Counted from the first letter of the stretch, positions 5,256 to 21,041 are shown. The stretch: DNA of 64,000 nucleotides from Akkermansia muciniphila (GCA_945861535.1 CAMAUZ010000006.1:62001-126000), one strand, 5' to 3'. Numbers and translations are program-made. Notes: a model not told the origin generated them from the letters alone.

Positions 5256-6431
5256 ATGAGCAAGAAAAACACGCCCGCTACCTCCAAAAAATTCGCCGCC
5301 TACCCGCGCCTCAACCCCTTCGGCGTCGGCAAAGACATCTCCGCCGCCGACCTCATCGACCAGTCGATGCTCGCCTACAACGGCGGCCGCCTCCGCGAGG
5401 CCGCGCAACTCCTCGCCAAGAAAATGCTTCCCCGCGACGGCTTCGTCGGCCTGTCTCTCACCGGCGCGCTCACCCCCGCCGGTCTCGGTAAAAGCTGCCT
5501 TATTCCCCTGATGAAAGCCGGTTTCGTGGACTGGATCATCTCCACCGGCGCGAACCTCTACCACGACCTCCACTTCGGCCTGGACATGCAGATCCACAGC
5601 GGCACGCCCTTCCTTGATGACGTCGCCCTCCACGCCGACGGCGTCATCCGCATCTACGACGTCCTCTTCGATTACAACGTCCTCCTCGACACCGACGCCT
5701 TCGTCCGCGAAGTGATCCAAGGCCCCGAATTCCAGCGTCCGATGGGCACCGACGAATTCCATTACCTCCTCGGCAAATACGTCCACGCCCGCCAGCAGAA
5801 ACTCGGCATCGCGGACAGCTCCGTCCTCGCCACCGCCTACGAATGCGGCATTCCCATCTTCACCAGCAGCCCCGGCGACTCCAGCATCGGCATGAACGTC
5901 GCCGCCATGGCCCTGCGCGGCTCGCGGCTCCTCCCCGACGTGAACCGCGACGTGAACCAGACCGCCGCCATCGTCTATCACGCCAAGAGCACCGGCCACA
6001 CCAGCAGCGTCTTTATCCTCGGCGGCGGCAGCCCGAAAAACTTCATGCTCCAGACCGAGCCGCAGATTCAGGAAGTCCTGGGCATCCAGGAAAAAGGCCA
6101 CGACTACTTCCTCCAATGCACCGACGCCCGCCCCGACACCGGCGGCCTCAGCGGCGCCACCCCCGCCGAAGCCGTGAGCTGGGGCAAAGTCGATCCCGAC
6201 AAACTCCCCGACAGCGTCGTCTGCTACACCGACACCACCATCGCCCTGCCGCTCCTCACCGCCTACATGCTCGCCCGCGTGGCCCCTCGCAAACCCAAGC
6301 GCCTCTACGACTCGCGCGACGCCATCCTCGAAGTCGTGCGCGCCAAATACCTCGCCACCGGCACCGTCACCAAAGTCACCACCAGCCGCAAAATCGCCAA
6401 ACGCGCCAGCAGTGTGGGGATGAAGAAATGA
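5256..6431 (+). CDS. Deoxyhypusine synthase-like protein (DHS/homospermidine synthase superfamily)
   Basis: 391 aa. The fold family uses NAD and spermidine, transferring an aminobutyl group either to eIF5A (archaea, eukaryotes) or to a small polyamine in bacterial relatives. Visible motifs: [18 protein letters not shown] (about 65-82), [15 protein letters not shown] (NAD-site region, about 90-105), [13 protein letters not shown] (about 205), [12 protein letters not shown] (about 251) and [13 protein letters not shown] (about 300). The K in S-W-G-K matches the catalytic lysine of deoxyhypusine synthase (A-V-S-W-G-K-I in the human enzyme). Bacteria lack eIF5A, so a polyamine role such as homospermidine or an aza-guanidine product is more likely. 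Its stop overlaps the jetA start by 4 bp (ATGA). The exact substrate is open. Confidence 0.88.
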
Positions 6432-13027: not shown

Positions 13028-13117
13028 TTTAGATCGATTTCGCTGGGTGTCCGGGTTGTTTCGCGTCCGAGTGCCCATCGTGAGTTGTTCCCAATAGCCG
13101 GTCCTATTTGCCGGTCC

Positions 13118-13263
13118 GGGGAGCGCGCGCCGCTGGCGTGCAGTTTTCGGCGGCCCGCCGAAAACTCGTTCCGCAAACCTTTTCGGACTGTGGAAATGGC
13201 AGACGGGGGAACGAGCGTTTGGGCGGGCCGCCCAAACCGGCACGCGGGCCGCGTGCGCTCCCC
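13118..13263 (-). repeat. Multi-hairpin repeat family B, copy 2a (inverted relative to copy 3)
   Basis: Outer stem GGGGAGCGC (13118-13126) and GCGCTCCCC (13255-13263). Inner hairpins: GTTTTCGGCGG-C-CCGCCGAAAAC (13143-13165), CTCGTTCC pairing with GGAACGAG (13165-13172 / 13208-13215), GTTTGGGCGG-G-CCGCCCAAAC (13217-13237) and GCACGCGG-G-CCGCGTGC (13240-13256). The whole element is nearly the reverse complement of 18962-19108. Confidence 0.92.
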
Positions 13264-13416
13264 GGGGAGCACACGCGCCCTCGCGTGTCGCCGGATGCGC
13301 CCTCGCATCCGGCGTCGGGGGGTGCCGCCAGGTCGTGAGAATTCTCGGTGCCTGCGTGCCACGCGGGTTTTCCGCGAGGGCGCGGAAAACGGCACCCGGG
13401 GGCGGGTGCGCTCCCC
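13264..13416. repeat. Multi-hairpin repeat family B, copy 2b
   Basis: Directly abuts copy 2a. Outer arms GGGGAGC and GCTCCCC. Hairpins: ACACGCG-CCCT-CGCGTGT (13271-13288), GCCGGATGCG-CCCT-CGCATCCGGC (13290-13313), GAGAATTCTC (13337-13346), GTTTTCCGCG-AGGG-CGCGGAAAAC (13367-13390) and GCACCCG-GGGG-CGGGTGC (13392-13409). Left loops read CCCT and the right one AGGG, as in copy 1. Confidence 0.9.
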
Positions 13417-13427
13417 GGGGCGGCGGT

Positions 13428-15741: not shown

Positions 15742-16875
15742 ATGTTGCCGAACTTGGAAACGTTGCCGCCGTCGGTGCCGCCGGGGGTGGCTCCGGCGTC
15801 GCTCGGGGCGGGGGCGCGGGTGGTGTTGCGGACGGTGGGTTTGCAGAAAGCGTTCGGGCGGACGATGGCGTTGGATGGGCTGAATCTGGAGGTGCGGGAG
15901 GGAGAGATTTACGGGTTTCTCGGGCGCAACGGGGCGGGGAAGACGACGACGATTCGCGCGTTGATGGGGATTCTGCAGCCGGACGCGGGCGAGGTGGTGT
16001 TGCTGGGGCGCGCGATGGCGCGCGTGGACACGGAGACGAAACGCCACATCGGCTATGTGTCGCAGGAGCCGCATTTTTATCCGTGGATGACGGGGGCGCA
16101 GCTCGGGCGGTTTGTGGGCGGGTTTTATCCGACGTGGGATCACGCGGAGTTTCGGCGGTTGATGGGGGCGTTGCAGTTGCCGCTGGACCGGCGGTTTTCG
16201 CATCTGTCGGGCGGAATGCAGATGAAGCTCGCTCTGGCGTTGGCGCTGGCGCATCGGCCGGCGCTGCTGATTCTCGACGAACCGACGGCGGGGTTGGACC
16301 CGGTGGCGCGGCGGGAGTTTCTGGACATTCTCGCGGGGCAGGCGCGGCAGCGGGGGCGCACGACGTTGTTTTCGTCGCATCTGATCGAGGAGGTGGATCG
16401 CGTGGCGGATCGGATCGGAATCATCGAGGCGGGGCGGATGCGGTATGAGGGGAGCTTGGCGGAATTGAAGGCGACGGTGCGGCGCGTGCGTGAGGCGCGG
16501 GGCCGGGTGGGGGCAAATTCTGCGCCCGCAGGAGAGGTGCCGCCGGCGGTGCCGCCGACAGTGATGCGGGTTGGGGATGTGGCGCCGGTGCTGGAGGTGC
16601 CGCCGGTGTTGGGTGGGGCGCTCGCAATGCCGCCGGTGCCGGTGCCGGAAGTTTTCGTGCCGCCGATTCCCGCGCCGCCGCGTTTGGGATTGGCGGTGCC
16701 GATGGGTTTTGAATTGCTGCGTGATGAATCGACGGAGGCCGAGACAGTGCTGGTGTTGCGCGCGCCGGCGGAGCGGTGGGGGATGATGGATTTTGGCGCG
16801 GGGGTCGTGGTGGAGGCGATGTCGTTGGAGGATGTGTTCTTGAGTTTTGTCGCGGGGAGGCGGATCGAGTTGTGA
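15742..16875 (+). CDS. ABC transporter ATP-binding protein with Pro/Val-rich insert
   Basis: 377 aa. Walker A GRNGAGKTT (about 60-68), Q-loop YVSQEP, signature LSGGM, Walker B LLILDEPTAGLDPV and H-loop FSSHL are all intact, so it should hydrolyse ATP. After the ATPase core (to about 245) comes an odd 60-residue stretch of P, V and A (such as GEVPPAVPPTVMRVGD and EVPPVLGGALAMPPVPVPEV). A conserved-looking tail follows, ending MSLEDVFLSFVAGR, which matches the usual C-terminus of ABC-2 type ATPases. The insert separates the core from that tail. It forms an operon with two ABC-2 type permeases downstream. Confidence 0.92.
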   Translation: MLPNLETLPPSVPPGVAPASLGAGARVVLRTVGLQKAFGRTMALDGLNLEVREGEIYGFLGRNGAGKTTTIRALMGILQPDAGEVVLLGRAMARVDTETKRHIGYVSQEPHFYPWMTGAQLGRFVGGFYPTWDHAEFRRLMGALQLPLDRRFSHLSGGMQMKLALALALAHRPALLILDEPTAGLDPVARREFLDILAGQARQRGRTTLFSSHLIEEVDRVADRIGIIEAGRMRYEGSLAELKATVRRVREARGRVGANSAPAGEVPPAVPPTVMRVGDVAPVLEVPPVLGGALAMPPVPVPEVFVPPIPAPPRLGLAVPMGFELLRDESTEAETVLVLRAPAERWGMMDFGAGVVVEAMSLEDVFLSFVAGRRIEL

Positions 16876-16900: not shown

Positions 16901-16980
16901 GGTGGGGCGCGTCTGTCCTCAGCGCGCCGGTGGGGTGTTCGACCGGTTCGGCGGCGCGCTGGGGACAGACGCGCCCTACC
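16901..16980. repeat. Palindromic repeat family A, copy 3, between ABC ATPase and permease genes
   Basis: GGGCGCGTCTGTCC (16905-16918) pairs perfectly with GGACAGACGCGCCC (16963-16976), and inside it CAGCGCGCC (16920-16928) pairs with GGCGCGCTG (16953-16961). It ends with the family's CCCTACC. In this copy the long-range stem is better kept than the two small hairpins. Confidence 0.88.
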
Positions 16981-17017: not shown

Positions 17018-18940
17018 ATGATCGGCATCACGCTCACGCTTTTACGGAAGGAAGTGCGGCAGCATTGGCTGCCGTTTCTGGCGCTGGCGGGGCTGTGTTT
17101 GGTGGCGTTGGGCGGGATTGTCGCGTGGCTGATGCGGGCGTCGCAGGTGGCGAGCGTGTTCGAGCCGGTGCGGATGTTTCTGATGTTCGGAGTGCCGTTG
17201 GCGGCGGCCATTTTGTGCGGGCGGTTGGTGGTGGCGGAGTATCAGGCGAAGACGCAGTTGTTTCTCGAGGCGCTGCCGGTGAGCCGGATTCACATGGTGC
17301 TGGTGAAGTTCGTGTTCGGCTTGGTCGCGTTGCTGGCGATGGTGTTGACGACGCTGGCGTTGGCGGCGTTGGCGGGGCGGCGGCATGAGGCGATGACCGG
17401 GCAATTCGCGGTGAACCTCACAGCCAGCGCCGCGGCGCACGCGTTGTTTTGGTTCACGTTTTTTTTTACGACGGGGTTGCTCGGGCGGTATCGCTGGCCG
17501 CTATTGATCCTGCTGGTGTGCGCGGCGTATGCGGTGTCGGTGGGGACGGCGTGGGATGTGTCGGAGTTTGGGCCGTTCAAGCTACTGGGCGACCGGTTCG
17601 CGTTCGAGCGCGAGGCGACGCCGGTGCGGGCGTTGCGCGAGGCGCTGCTCGCGGCCGGCGGGTTGGCGGCGGTGGGTTTCGCGCTGGCGCTGGTGCGCGA
17701 GGGGAATGTGTCGGCGCTGTTGGCGGAGCGGATGTCGCAACGGGAGAAGGTCTTCGTGTCGGTGGTGCTGCTCACGACCGTGGCGGTGCTCGGCACGGTG
17801 TCGGCGAAGACGAAGCACGAGCCGTATCGGCTGCCGGACGCGGTCGAGGTCGTGGTGCGCGGCGTGGTGGTGAAGGTGGCGGGGCCGGAGGCGAAGGCGC
17901 GTCCGCTGGCGGAATTCCTCGCGGGTGAGATGGCGGAGCTGCGGGAGTATCTCGCGCTGGACGCGCTGCCGACGGTGATGATCACGCGGCGCAGCGATCT
18001 GGATGCGAACAAATTCGAGCGCGGCAAGATCTCGAACGCGGAGGGATTTCTCGTGCGGTTGAATTACGACGCGGAGGGTTTTGATCGCGGGCGGTTCGTC
18101 GCGTGGCTGGCAGGGGAAGTGGTGAATCATCGGCTGCACGGGCGCGCGGGGCGGGAGCCGCGGCGGTGGGTGCTGGATGGGTTTGGCGAGTTCTGGCGGC
18201 GGCGCGCGAAGCTGGGTGCGCCGCTGGCGGAGGACGCCGATCTGGCGCTGCGGGCGTTGGTGGGCTTTGGCGAATCGGGTGTGGACGCCGCGGCGCTGGC
18301 GGCGTGGCTGACGACGCGGGAGCGCGTGGGTGAGGGCGTGGCGGTGGGCATGGCGTGGTCGGGATTGCGGACGATCGAGCGGGCGCGGGGAGCGGAGGCG
18401 TGCCGGGATTTTCTGCGGAATGTGCTGGGGCGGCGGCTGCCGCAGGACGTGCGGGCGGTGTGGCGGGATCGGGGGACGGTGGGGGCGCGGCTGCGGCGCG
18501 CGGCGGGGTGGACGGAGACGGAATTGCTCGCGGCGTGGAACGGCGAACTGAAGGCGGCACGGGCGGAGTTGGCGGCGGAGTTGGCGAAGGTGCCGCGGCC
18601 GGCGTTGGATTTGAAACTCGTGGCGGCCACGCCGGAGACGGTGGTGGTGCGGTATCGCGTGGGGTTCGGTTTTGCCCCGGTGGTTTCGGCCGCGGCGGGG
18701 GAGGTGGAGTATCGGTTGCGGTATCTGGAACTGCCGCCGTTGAACGAGGCGTTGGAGGAGGATTTGTTGAAGGACGAATTGCATCGCGAGGTGTTGGAGC
18801 AGGCCGGGGAACACGAGTTGCCGGCGACGTTTCCGCGTGGTGGACGGCTGGTGGCGGGTGCGGCGGTGTTCGCGCCGGCGCTGGGGTGCGATGTGATTTC
18901 GGGGTGGCGGCGGGTGACGGTGGAGGGGGTGGCGCGATGA
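17018..18940 (+). CDS. ABC-2 permease fused to a degenerate gluzincin-like peptidase domain
   Basis: 640 aa from the ATG at 17018 (the frame is open upstream through a repeat). The N-terminal half (about 1-265) has six transmembrane segments of ABC-2 type (LPFLALAGLCLVALGGIVAW, FVFGLVALLAMVLTTLALAA). The C-terminal half lines up by order and spacing with the peptidase domain of the next gene. Where that protein has H-E-T-T-H, this one has G366-E-V-V-N370, and the downstream WFHEGLASY is here WVLDGFGEF, so the zinc ligands are lost and it is probably a non-catalytic paralogue. A further helical domain and a C-terminal beta-domain follow. It could scan or bind peptides for export; the function is not established. 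Confidence 0.8.
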   Translation: MIGITLTLLRKEVRQHWLPFLALAGLCLVALGGIVAWLMRASQVASVFEPVRMFLMFGVPLAAAILCGRLVVAEYQAKTQLFLEALPVSRIHMVLVKFVFGLVALLAMVLTTLALAALAGRRHEAMTGQFAVNLTASAAAHALFWFTFFFTTGLLGRYRWPLLILLVCAAYAVSVGTAWDVSEFGPFKLLGDRFAFEREATPVRALREALLAAGGLAAVGFALALVREGNVSALLAERMSQREKVFVSVVLLTTVAVLGTVSAKTKHEPYRLPDAVEVVVRGVVVKVAGPEAKARPLAEFLAGEMAELREYLALDALPTVMITRRSDLDANKFERGKISNAEGFLVRLNYDAEGFDRGRFVAWLAGEVVNHRLHGRAGREPRRWVLDGFGEFWRRRAKLGAPLAEDADLALRALVGFGESGVDAAALAAWLTTRERVGEGVAVGMAWSGLRTIERARGAEACRDFLRNVLGRRLPQDVRAVWRDRGTVGARLRRAAGWTETELLAAWNGELKAARAELAAELAKVPRPALDLKLVAATPETVVVRYRVGFGFAPVVSAAAGEVEYRLRYLELPPLNEALEEDLLKDELHREVLEQAGEHELPATFPRGGRLVAGAAVFAPALGCDVISGWRRVTVEGVAR

Positions 18941-19155
18941 ATCCGAACGCGAGAAGACGAAGGGGAGCGCACGCGGCCCGCGTGCTGGTTTGGGCGGCCC
19001 TCCCGAATCTTCGTGCCCCGGTCCGCCTTTTCTGCGGCGGGGAAAAGTTAGTGGAACGAGGTTTTCGGCGGGCCGCCGAAAACGACACGCCAGCGGCGTG
19101 CGCTCCCCGGGGCCTCCGCCTTCTCACGTCGGCGGCTACGGGGGGCGCGCGATGA
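18937..19155 (+). other. Open 72-codon frame bridging two permease genes through a family B repeat
   Basis: The frame starts at ATG 18937, overlapping the stop of the upstream gene (ATGA), runs open through the whole repeat at 18962-19108, and stops at TGA 19153-19155, overlapping the ATG of the next gene (again ATGA). The product would be Arg/Ala-rich with no recognisable fold. More likely it reflects a repeat that inserted between two coupled genes while keeping a translatable link. Not counted as a normal protein gene. Confidence 0.5.
18962..19108 (+). repeat. Multi-hairpin repeat family B, copy 3
   Basis: Outer stem GGGGAGCGC (18962-18970) and GCGCTCCCC (19100-19108). Hairpins: GCACGCGG-C-CCGCGTGC (18969-18985), GTTTTCGGCGG-G-CCGCCGAAAAC (19061-19083) and CACGCC-AGC-GGCGTG (19086-19100). 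The GTTTGGG arm seen in copy 2a is partly decayed here. It is almost the reverse complement of 13118-13263. Confidence 0.92.
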
Positions 19156-21041
19156 AACCACTGCTGGCCAAGGAACTGAGCGCACTGCGGCCGTTTGGGG
19201 TGCTGTTTATCGTGTTGGGGAGCCTCAACGTGCTGAGCGCGATGTTCTCGGACTTTCTCGATATGAAGAGCCTGGCGCATCTGGTGAACGCGTCGGTGCG
19301 TGATTCAGATCCCGATGTGCCAGGGTTTTTGGCGGTGTTCGCGCTCGGCGTCGGGTTGCTCGTGCGCGAGCGGGATGAGGGGACGCTGGAGTTTCTGGAT
19401 GCGTTGCCGTGCGGGCGGCGGGACATTTTTCTGGCGAAGCTGACGGCGGGTGCCCTGGTGGCGGGATTGCTGCCGTTGACGGGAAACATCTGGGTGCTCG
19501 CACTGCACGCGTGGTCGCGGGATTCGCTGGAGCCGACGTTTCACTGGGGGATGGCGGGGCAGACGTTCCTGATCGAATGGTTCGGCGCGGTGGTGACGCT
19601 CACGCTCGGGCTGGCGCTGGGTTTTCTGCGGCGGTTTGCGTTCTTCGTGCTGGGCCTGCTGTGCGTGGGCTTCTTCGTGCTCGAACACCGGCAGGTGCCG
19701 TGGATCGACCTGCTCAATATTTTCGCGCTCACGCGCTATGATTTTTACGGGGCGGACGTGGTCACGCCGTGGTCGCGGCTGGGCGTGCTGCTGGCGCTCG
19801 GGGGCGGCTGTGCGGCGCTGGCGTTCGGACTTTTCCGCCTGCAAGGGGATCGCACGACGGTGATCGCGACGCGGCTGGCGCGGGTGCCGTTTCGTGGGGT
19901 GCTCGTGACGGTCGGAACCATCGCGATGGTCGGGCTGTGGATCGGACTGTTCGCGTGGGTGATGAAGGATCAGGTGCAGGAGGAAGACCCCAAGGCGGTG
20001 CGCGTGGAATATCCGACGTGGGAGGTTTCGCGCGCTCATGCTGGCGGCTACACGTTTTTGTATCCGGCGGATTCGGCGGAGCGTGCGCTGGCATTGGCGC
20101 GGCGGGCGGAGGGGATTCACGGGCAGGTGCGGAGTTTTTTTGGTGCGGAAGCGCCGGGGGAAATCGTGGCCGACCTTGCCAGCCCGCTGCGGCACGGGCT
20201 GGGCGGCACGGCGAATTGGAAGCGGGTGAACATGAATCTGGCGATGGGCGCTGATGCCGAGGAGCTGGAGGCGATCCTCGGGCACGAGACGACGCATGTT
20301 TACATCGATGTGCTGAGCAACAGCCGGATGGCGGAGAAGTTCAATGCGACGCGGTGGTTTCACGAGGGGTTGGCGAGTTATGTCGAGCATCGTTTTTTTC
20401 GGCCGCCCGAGGCGCTGGACAAACTGCGGCGGCTGGCGGCGGCGGCGCATAAACGCAAGGCGGCCGAGTGGGATGATCTGGTGGACAACGCGGGCTGGTC
20501 GCTGCGGCGTGATGCGAATCTGGCGTATCCGCTGGGCGAGGTGTTTGTCGCGGTGCTGGTCGAGCAGCACGGCGACACCGCGCCGGCGCAGCTACTGCGC
20601 GCGGCCGGGCGCAAGGATCTGCCGGAGAAACTCGTGGGGGCGACGTTGTGGCGTGATTTATTCCAGCACTGCGGCTGGGACCTCGCGAAGACGCTGGATG
20701 GGTATTACGCGCGGTTGCGGGCGCTGGCGGAGGGGGAGCATCGCGAGTTTGTGGAGTCGTTGCCGCGCCTCAGCGGGCGCGTGCGCATGGAGAGGGATCG
20801 CATCAGCATCGAACCGGTGGTGCGGGGGGCATTGCCGGAGGGCTGTCGCATCGTGTGCCAGCTCCGCAGGCAGCCGGATGACGCGGAGACGGATTTTGTG
20901 CAGCCGCACCGGGAGGATGAGCTCTTTTGGGCGGAGCGTTCGGCGCTGCCGGGCGGGACGTTTTGGTATCAACTTGGTATCAAGTCGCCGCTCACGGATT
21001 TGCCGGTGTGTGAGGAATGGCAGAAGGCGAATTTGCGGTGA
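19152..21041 (+). CDS. ABC-2 permease fused to a zinc metallopeptidase (gluzincin) domain
   Basis: 629 aa. The N-terminal half (about 1-275) has six membrane segments of ABC-2 type: PFGVLFIVLGSLNVLSAMFS first, later FLAVFALGVGLLVRERDEGT, LRRFAFFVLGLLCVGFFVLE and GTIAMVGLWIGLFAWVM. The C-terminal half carries a full gluzincin zinc site: H378-E-T-T-H382 inside EAILGHETTHVYIDVL, and the third ligand E405 in RWFHEGLASYVEH, the spacing found in M1-type peptidases. It thus couples a transporter half to a peptidase, probably facing the periplasm. It sits in one operon with an ABC ATPase and an inactive paralogue. Substrate unknown; proteolytic maturation of an exported peptide is one possibility. 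Confidence 0.85.
   Translation: MKPLLAKELSALRPFGVLFIVLGSLNVLSAMFSDFLDMKSLAHLVNASVRDSDPDVPGFLAVFALGVGLLVRERDEGTLEFLDALPCGRRDIFLAKLTAGALVAGLLPLTGNIWVLALHAWSRDSLEPTFHWGMAGQTFLIEWFGAVVTLTLGLALGFLRRFAFFVLGLLCVGFFVLEHRQVPWIDLLNIFALTRYDFYGADVVTPWSRLGVLLALGGGCAALAFGLFRLQGDRTTVIATRLARVPFRGVLVTVGTIAMVGLWIGLFAWVMKDQVQEEDPKAVRVEYPTWEVSRAHAGGYTFLYPADSAERALALARRAEGIHGQVRSFFGAEAPGEIVADLASPLRHGLGGTANWKRVNMNLAMGADAEELEAILGHETTHVYIDVLSNSRMAEKFNATRWFHEGLASYVEHRFFRPPEALDKLRRLAAAAHKRKAAEWDDLVDNAGWSLRRDANLAYPLGEVFVAVLVEQHGDTAPAQLLRAAGRKDLPEKLVGATLWRDLFQHCGWDLAKTLDGYYARLRALAEGEHREFVESLPRLSGRVRMERDRISIEPVVRGALPEGCRIVCQLRRQPDDAETDFVQPHREDELFWAERSALPGGTFWYQLGIKSPLTDLPVCEEWQKANLR

Follow-up and report, generated by a model that had tools for sequence, protein, structure and literature searches.

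The window analysed here (the whole stretch of DNA, 64,000 nucleotides, from a genome of 7.9 Mb) carries three successive genes on one strand, T, A, and B, which form the unit T-A-B. T codes for an ABC ATPase, and A and B code for ABC-2 permeases with large C-terminal domains. An earlier note on this DNA had let the permease pair extend from the start of A at 17018 to the end of the B stop codon at 21041, and both positions are exact. The features are as follows (window coordinates).

15742..16875 (+): T, ABC ATPase with a long C-terminal extension (ORF; PF00005, E 1.5e-31)
17018..18940 (+): A, ABC-2 permease with a C-terminal putative pseudo-peptidase domain, 640 aa (ORF; ABC2_membrane_4, E 5.7e-6)
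17018..17809 (+): membrane part of A, residues 1-264, six NosY-like helices plus helix 7 (246-264) (NosY 7znq_y, Z 15.5 over residues 3-228; hydropathy and charge census)
17810..18937 (+): C-terminal half of A, residues 265-640, predicted gluzincin-like fold without zinc site, followed by a beta domain
18113..18127 (+): G366-E-V-V-N370 of A, opposite the HExxH of B (sequence, profile alignment, paired rows)
18176..18178 (+): D387 of A, opposite the third zinc ligand (profile alignment; D in 27/30 rows)
19152..21041 (+): B, ABC-2 permease with a C-terminal gluzincin-like peptidase domain, 629 aa (ORF; ABC2_membrane_2)
19152..19967 (+): membrane part of B, residues 1-272, six NosY-like helices plus helix 7 (7qba_E)
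19896..19964 (+): helix 7 of B, residues 249-271, predicted to take the peptidase domain across the membrane
20010..21038 (+): peptidase domain and C-terminal beta domain of B, residues 287-629 (3ftu, Z 16.1)
20283..20297 (+): HETTH of B, residues 378-382, two zinc-ligand His and the catalytic Glu (30/30 rows)
20364..20366 (+): E405 of B, third zinc ligand (30/30 rows)
20526..20528 (+): Y459 of B, candidate catalytic Tyr (29/29 rows having a residue there)

The motifs of T are intact (Walker A GRNGAGKTT, signature LSGGM, Walker B LLILDEP, H-switch SSH). The two permeases are linked to this intact ABC ATPase, and all but a few relatives have an orthologue of T immediately before A. In the Pfam scan, the ABC-2 family matches of A and B are confined to their N-terminal parts, with B scoring 29.1 bits against a cut-off of 27.2 and A scoring 26.9, just below its cut-off of 27.0. 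On the soluble halves of the window proteins, no Pfam or NCBIfam model scored above cut-off, and scans of the soluble halves of relatives returned weak or scattered matches only.

A plain BLASTP comparison of A and B is near noise and uninformative, and their homology shows only via profiles. Profile-profile alignment identifies A and B as full-length paralogues (99.8% probability, E 1.2e-27). W384-V-L-D387-G388 of A is aligned with W402-F-H-E405-G406 of B, so that RWVLDG stands opposite RWFHEG and D387 takes the place of E405.

Structures were predicted with AlphaFold2 from an alignment of 11 sequences for B and of 10 sequences for A. The mean pLDDT was 80.9 for B and 77.8 for A, and the block of B from residue 370 onward mostly reached values of 85-97. 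In the predicted models, both membrane parts adopt the six-helix ABC-2 fold, the best structural match for B being NosY (7qba_E, Z 17.9 over residues 1-232); the corresponding NosY value for A is 15.5. The soluble part of B matched LTA4 hydrolase (3ftu; Z 16.1, 222 aligned positions, 3.7 Å), and the soluble part of A matched the M1 aminopeptidase PSA (8sw0; Z 13.7, 219 aligned positions, 3.6 Å). Foldseek on its own gave modest E-values of 1.5e-3 (B) and 1.0e-3 (A). The background Z for models lacking a clear match is 7 to 8, and helical bundles can by chance attain about 13; A, at 13.7, lies close to this limit, and the assignment of its soluble part leans also on the profile homology to B. 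The case for an M1 fold is built on matches to many independent M1 entries, on Z values well over the background of 7-8, and on the HExxH of B lying in the expected helix (369-388); E405 is found in helix 397-415. Both C-terminal halves are thus predicted to fold like M1/gluzincin domains. This agrees with the earlier note, which had ascribed the same layout and gluzincin-type C-terminal halves to both permeases. Chance as an explanation for the peptidase likeness of A was ruled out by the profile comparison and the fold. Foldseek rows of A to helicase Brr2 and to Integrator subunits were dropped, as they combined very low TM-scores with long helical stretches.

The proposal that the two permeases are an active/inactive pair was based on H378-E-T-T-H382 and E405 in B and on replaced ligands in A. 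Each of these residues of B was recovered in the sequence, as was G366-E-V-V-N370 of A, with D387 in place of the third ligand by profile alignment. The division is systematic. Among 30 paired rows of A and B (28 distinct loci, as L012/L056 and L055/L083 are duplicates), H378, E379, H382, and E405 of B are each conserved in 30, although one of the two patterns used in the species-genome scan contains HET..H and degenerate copies of B may have been missed there. Y459, a candidate for the catalytic Tyr by analogy with gluzincins, is present in 29 of the 29 rows having a residue at that position. The gluzincin (clan MA) signature, HExxH with a downstream Glu ligand, is therefore complete in B in all rows. 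HExxH occurs in none of the 30 rows of A, where the third-ligand position is occupied by D in 27; seven rows retain the first-position His, not the second. With the gluzincin ligands absent, A is a pseudo-peptidase. It has near-fixed residues of its own, namely E380 (29/30), W384 (29/30), G388 (30/30), and W393 (28/30).

For the searches in Myxococcota, Acidobacteriota, and Planctomycetota, a profile without a HET..H requirement was used, and it did recover degenerate relatives of B in Planctomycetota (L107 1124-3304, minus strand; L108 1-1254, plus strand; L109). In L107, the site reads HATAH, so that the ligands H, H, and E are kept while Ala replaces the catalytic Glu; the L108 relative has no HExxH site. 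The A part in L107 looks frame-shifted past its membrane part. Judged from these sequences, the core family keeps the active/dead division, and B has lost catalysis as well in a remote branch, so that not every relative depends on it.

Although its predicted fold is that of M1 enzymes, B is gluzincin-like and, by motif and profile, outside peptidase family M1. The GAMEN motif is absent and most rows have G-x-A-x-W there (the place being set by spacing, not by coordinates), the ligand spacing is HExxH-x22-E as compared to HExxH-x18-E in M1, and none of 11 B proteins matched PF01433 at E up to 1. Membership of B in M1 was ruled out on these grounds. M1 aminopeptidases (LTA4 hydrolase, ERAP, PSA) share with B the soluble fold and the set of HExxH, downstream Glu, and Tyr. 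In contrast to them, B is anchored in the membrane behind an ABC-2 permease.

Loci in T-A-B order are present in four phyla, namely Verrucomicrobiota, Myxococcota, Planctomycetota, and Acidobacteriota; a same-genus relative of the window (L048) is a Verrucomicrobiota metagenome assembly. The adjacency of A and B, together with the ATPase, is thus conserved in relatives. The earlier note had named two outcomes that would refute it, C-terminal halves without an M1/gluzincin-like predicted fold and a pair that relatives lack, and neither was observed. In the order to which the window belongs, B is rare (only 5 of 320 genomes) and A adjoins B where contigs are intact; in one genome (G001), A and B are on separate contigs, with each match ending near a contig end. 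According to a scan of 84,980 species genomes, B is present in Archangium, Citreicoccus, a Pirellulaceae, a Thermoanaerobaculia, and several Verrucomicrobia, and every locus holding the region had the T-A-B order. The profile search in Myxococcota detected B in 19 of 195 genomes, and in the regions fetched, A is directly upstream of B in all but one genome (G721). Acidobacteriota contributed one further full locus (L105 in G910). Start and stop codons of successive genes overlap in most loci inspected (in L049, L050, and L055, the end of A and the start of B coincide at 5998).

The exceptional genome G721 carries a solitary soluble relative of the B peptidase (L096 878-2647, minus strand), which lacks a permease part but keeps HETAH; its peptidase domain is followed by a C-terminal part resembling Sel1-type repeats. 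No relatives of B were found on plasmids. A phylum-wide search with an early B profile returned generic ABC-2 membrane matches only, apart from the window itself. Among the neighbours, compared by ORF layout and sequence starts, no conserved gene hinting at a substrate and no shared function was found.

In a phylogenetic tree, the A sequences group in one clade and the B sequences in another (100/100 support for each), and thus the split into an intact and a dead copy is older than the spread over phyla. The distance matrices of A and B correlate with r = 0.97, as expected for a unit that is inherited together, although shared vertical descent alone also yields such a correlation. Comparison of two same-genus genomes gave dN/dS values of 0.20 for A (0.23 for its soluble part) and 0.09 for B. 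The dead domain of A is kept by purifying selection, with a weaker constraint than that on B. A was considered as a decaying gene, and this was ruled out by its dN/dS of 0.20 and the fixed residues E380, W384, and G388.

In both proteins, a further hydrophobic helix follows the six NosY-like helices (residues 249-271 in B, where the predicted model has a helix at 248-272, and residues 246-264 in A). Both ends of NosY-type permeases are cytoplasmic, and helix 7 should therefore put the soluble domain into the periplasm. The loop before helix 7 is basic (K+R > D+E) in 29 of 30 rows of B and in 24 of 30 rows of A. After helix 7, K+R exceeds D+E in none of 30 rows of B (acidic) and in 17 of 30 rows of A (mixed), so that the positive-inside pattern around helix 7 is clear for B. 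From helix 7 and the charge pattern, we infer that the C-terminal domains of A and B are both periplasmic.

The earlier note knew of no described transporter of this form. This stands for the two-gene active/pseudo pair, as literature searches found no description of such a pair, nor of ABC-2 permeases with gluzincin, pseudopeptidase, or aminopeptidase domains under those terms. It does not stand for the combination as such, since a single-chain ABC-2 plus M1 fusion is known (TCDB 3.A.1.145; Myxococcus xanthus Q1D520, 1200 aa, 13 TMS; PMC3924187). Like T-A-B, that protein has an ABC-2 membrane part, followed by one more helix and then by a zinc peptidase with an M1-like fold. It carries both membrane halves and a single true M1 domain (HEVAH...E, with 19 between) in one chain, whereas T-A-B has two chains of about seven TMS, and each of these consists of a membrane half and a peptidase-like domain, one of the two domains being dead. 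Single-chain fusions of this kind were also seen in genomes that carry T-A-B (L140 3967-7704, minus strand; L141 1-3510, plus strand); they have 1246 aa in G771 and 1170 aa in G707, the latter from an ORF that runs off the start of its contig. Against the 1246-aa protein, the B profile gave no recognisable match (E 1.1) and the A profile had no hit, so that T-A-B is a separate family and identity with 3.A.1.145 was ruled out.

Two other systems are comparable in part. NosFY (of NosDFY) shares with T-A-B the membrane fold (Z 15.5-17.9) and a separate ATPase gene, but NosY is without a C-terminal peptidase domain, whereas A and B add helix 7 and a peptidase-like domain. In PCAT/AMS transporters, a C39 peptidase, or in HlyB a degenerate C39-like domain, a dead peptidase relative with a non-catalytic role, is by analogy part of an ABC exporter (PMC8277102). 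These belong to a different ABC class, their cysteine peptidase is N-terminal and cytosolic, and active and dead forms occur in different transporters, whereas T-A-B has both as one pair.

We consider it about an even chance (roughly 50%) that the products of the three genes assemble into a single NosFY-like ABC-2 complex, most likely T2-A-B, which couples ATP-driven movement to cleavage by B. The arrangement presupposes that A and B heterodimerise, that B is catalytic, and that the substrate is peptide-like, all of which we infer. The earlier note had suggested a heterodimer of a catalytic and a pseudo-peptidase half, perhaps for maturing or clearing peptides; its reading is supported as to architecture, fold, and conservation, and is a proposal as to assembly and function. 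By hydrolysing ATP, T would set the membrane helices of both permeases in motion. This movement would either export a peptide-like substrate or drag or open the periplasmic domains, and the zinc site of B would then hydrolyse the emerging substrate in the periplasm. Because the GAMEN glutamate is absent, B is probably not an aminopeptidase of the M1 type but an endopeptidase or a special-purpose hydrolase. The dead domain of A may act as a substrate-binding, docking, or allosteric partner, by analogy to the degenerate C39-like domain of HlyB. The T2-A-B complex is supported by the restriction of the zinc site to B, the fixed gene order, the overlapping codons, the fully supported clades (100/100), the correlated distances (r = 0.97), the M1/gluzincin and NosY folds, purifying selection, the charges around helix 7, and the missing GAMEN, and also by the precedents of the single-chain fusion with 13 TMS and of HlyB. 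It is weakened by the lack of a substrate hint from neighbouring genes, by the mixed charge of A after helix 7, and by the degenerate B copies in L107 and L108.

NosDFY works on the periplasmic side. A related machine, in which T, as in NosDFY, would cause periplasmic conformational changes, the domains of A and B would be an ATP-gated protease acting on envelope proteins or on peptides that are outside beforehand, and nothing would be exported, is rather unlikely in our assessment. The membrane parts match NosY best and helix 7 gives the required periplasmic placement; however, NosY resembles ordinary ABC-2 exporters too, so that the fold cannot separate transport from force transmission, and no conserved periplasmic partner gene was found among the neighbours by ORF layout and sequence starts. 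Mechanical transmission and delivery by T2-A-B cannot be told apart from the sequence data.

NosY forms homodimers, and by this precedent A and B might assemble separately as T2A2 and T2B2, with A a plain exporter that carries a decorative remnant domain. We regard this as improbable, given that a single ATPase gene serves two permeases in fixed order with overlapping reading frames, that A and B always occur together, and that the soluble part of A is under selection. It is equally improbable that B binds zinc or another metal without being a protease, the pair then being a metal-handling or sensing module, as might be suggested by L107 with its H, H, and E ligands and Ala for the catalytic Glu, since E379 (30/30) and Tyr459 (29/29) are invariant in the paired rows.

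Beyond the T2-A-B complex itself, and somewhat more tentatively, the unit may represent a new family of ABC machines, with catalytic and pseudo gluzincin domains facing each other on a heterodimeric ABC-2 transporter, which would perform ATP-gated proteolysis of a periplasmic substrate that it delivers itself. If true, an ABC transporter would here have a periplasmic zinc peptidase of its own, accompanied by a conserved dead twin. With the active and the dead copy held in the same complex over four phyla, it would provide a clean natural case for studying pseudo-enzyme function, and the question of function is raised for a domain family outside the coverage of Pfam and NCBIfam models. The proposal is testable, as the soluble domains have about 350 aa and the three-gene operon is present in culturable myxobacteria (Archangium, Citreicoccus).

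The spacers within the unit contain inverted repeats. The spacer between A and B (18955-19135) is one copy of a palindromic repeat that is dispersed in the genome and measures about 150 bp; its arms, at 18962-19017 and 19053-19108, are 77% complementary. At least 43 copies are present in the genome (40 of 304 candidate places scored), and similar inverted repeats are located at 13116-13265 and 13260-13420 of the window. The spacer between T and A holds a different inverted repeat (16901-16980), with 29-nt arms that are 93% complementary.
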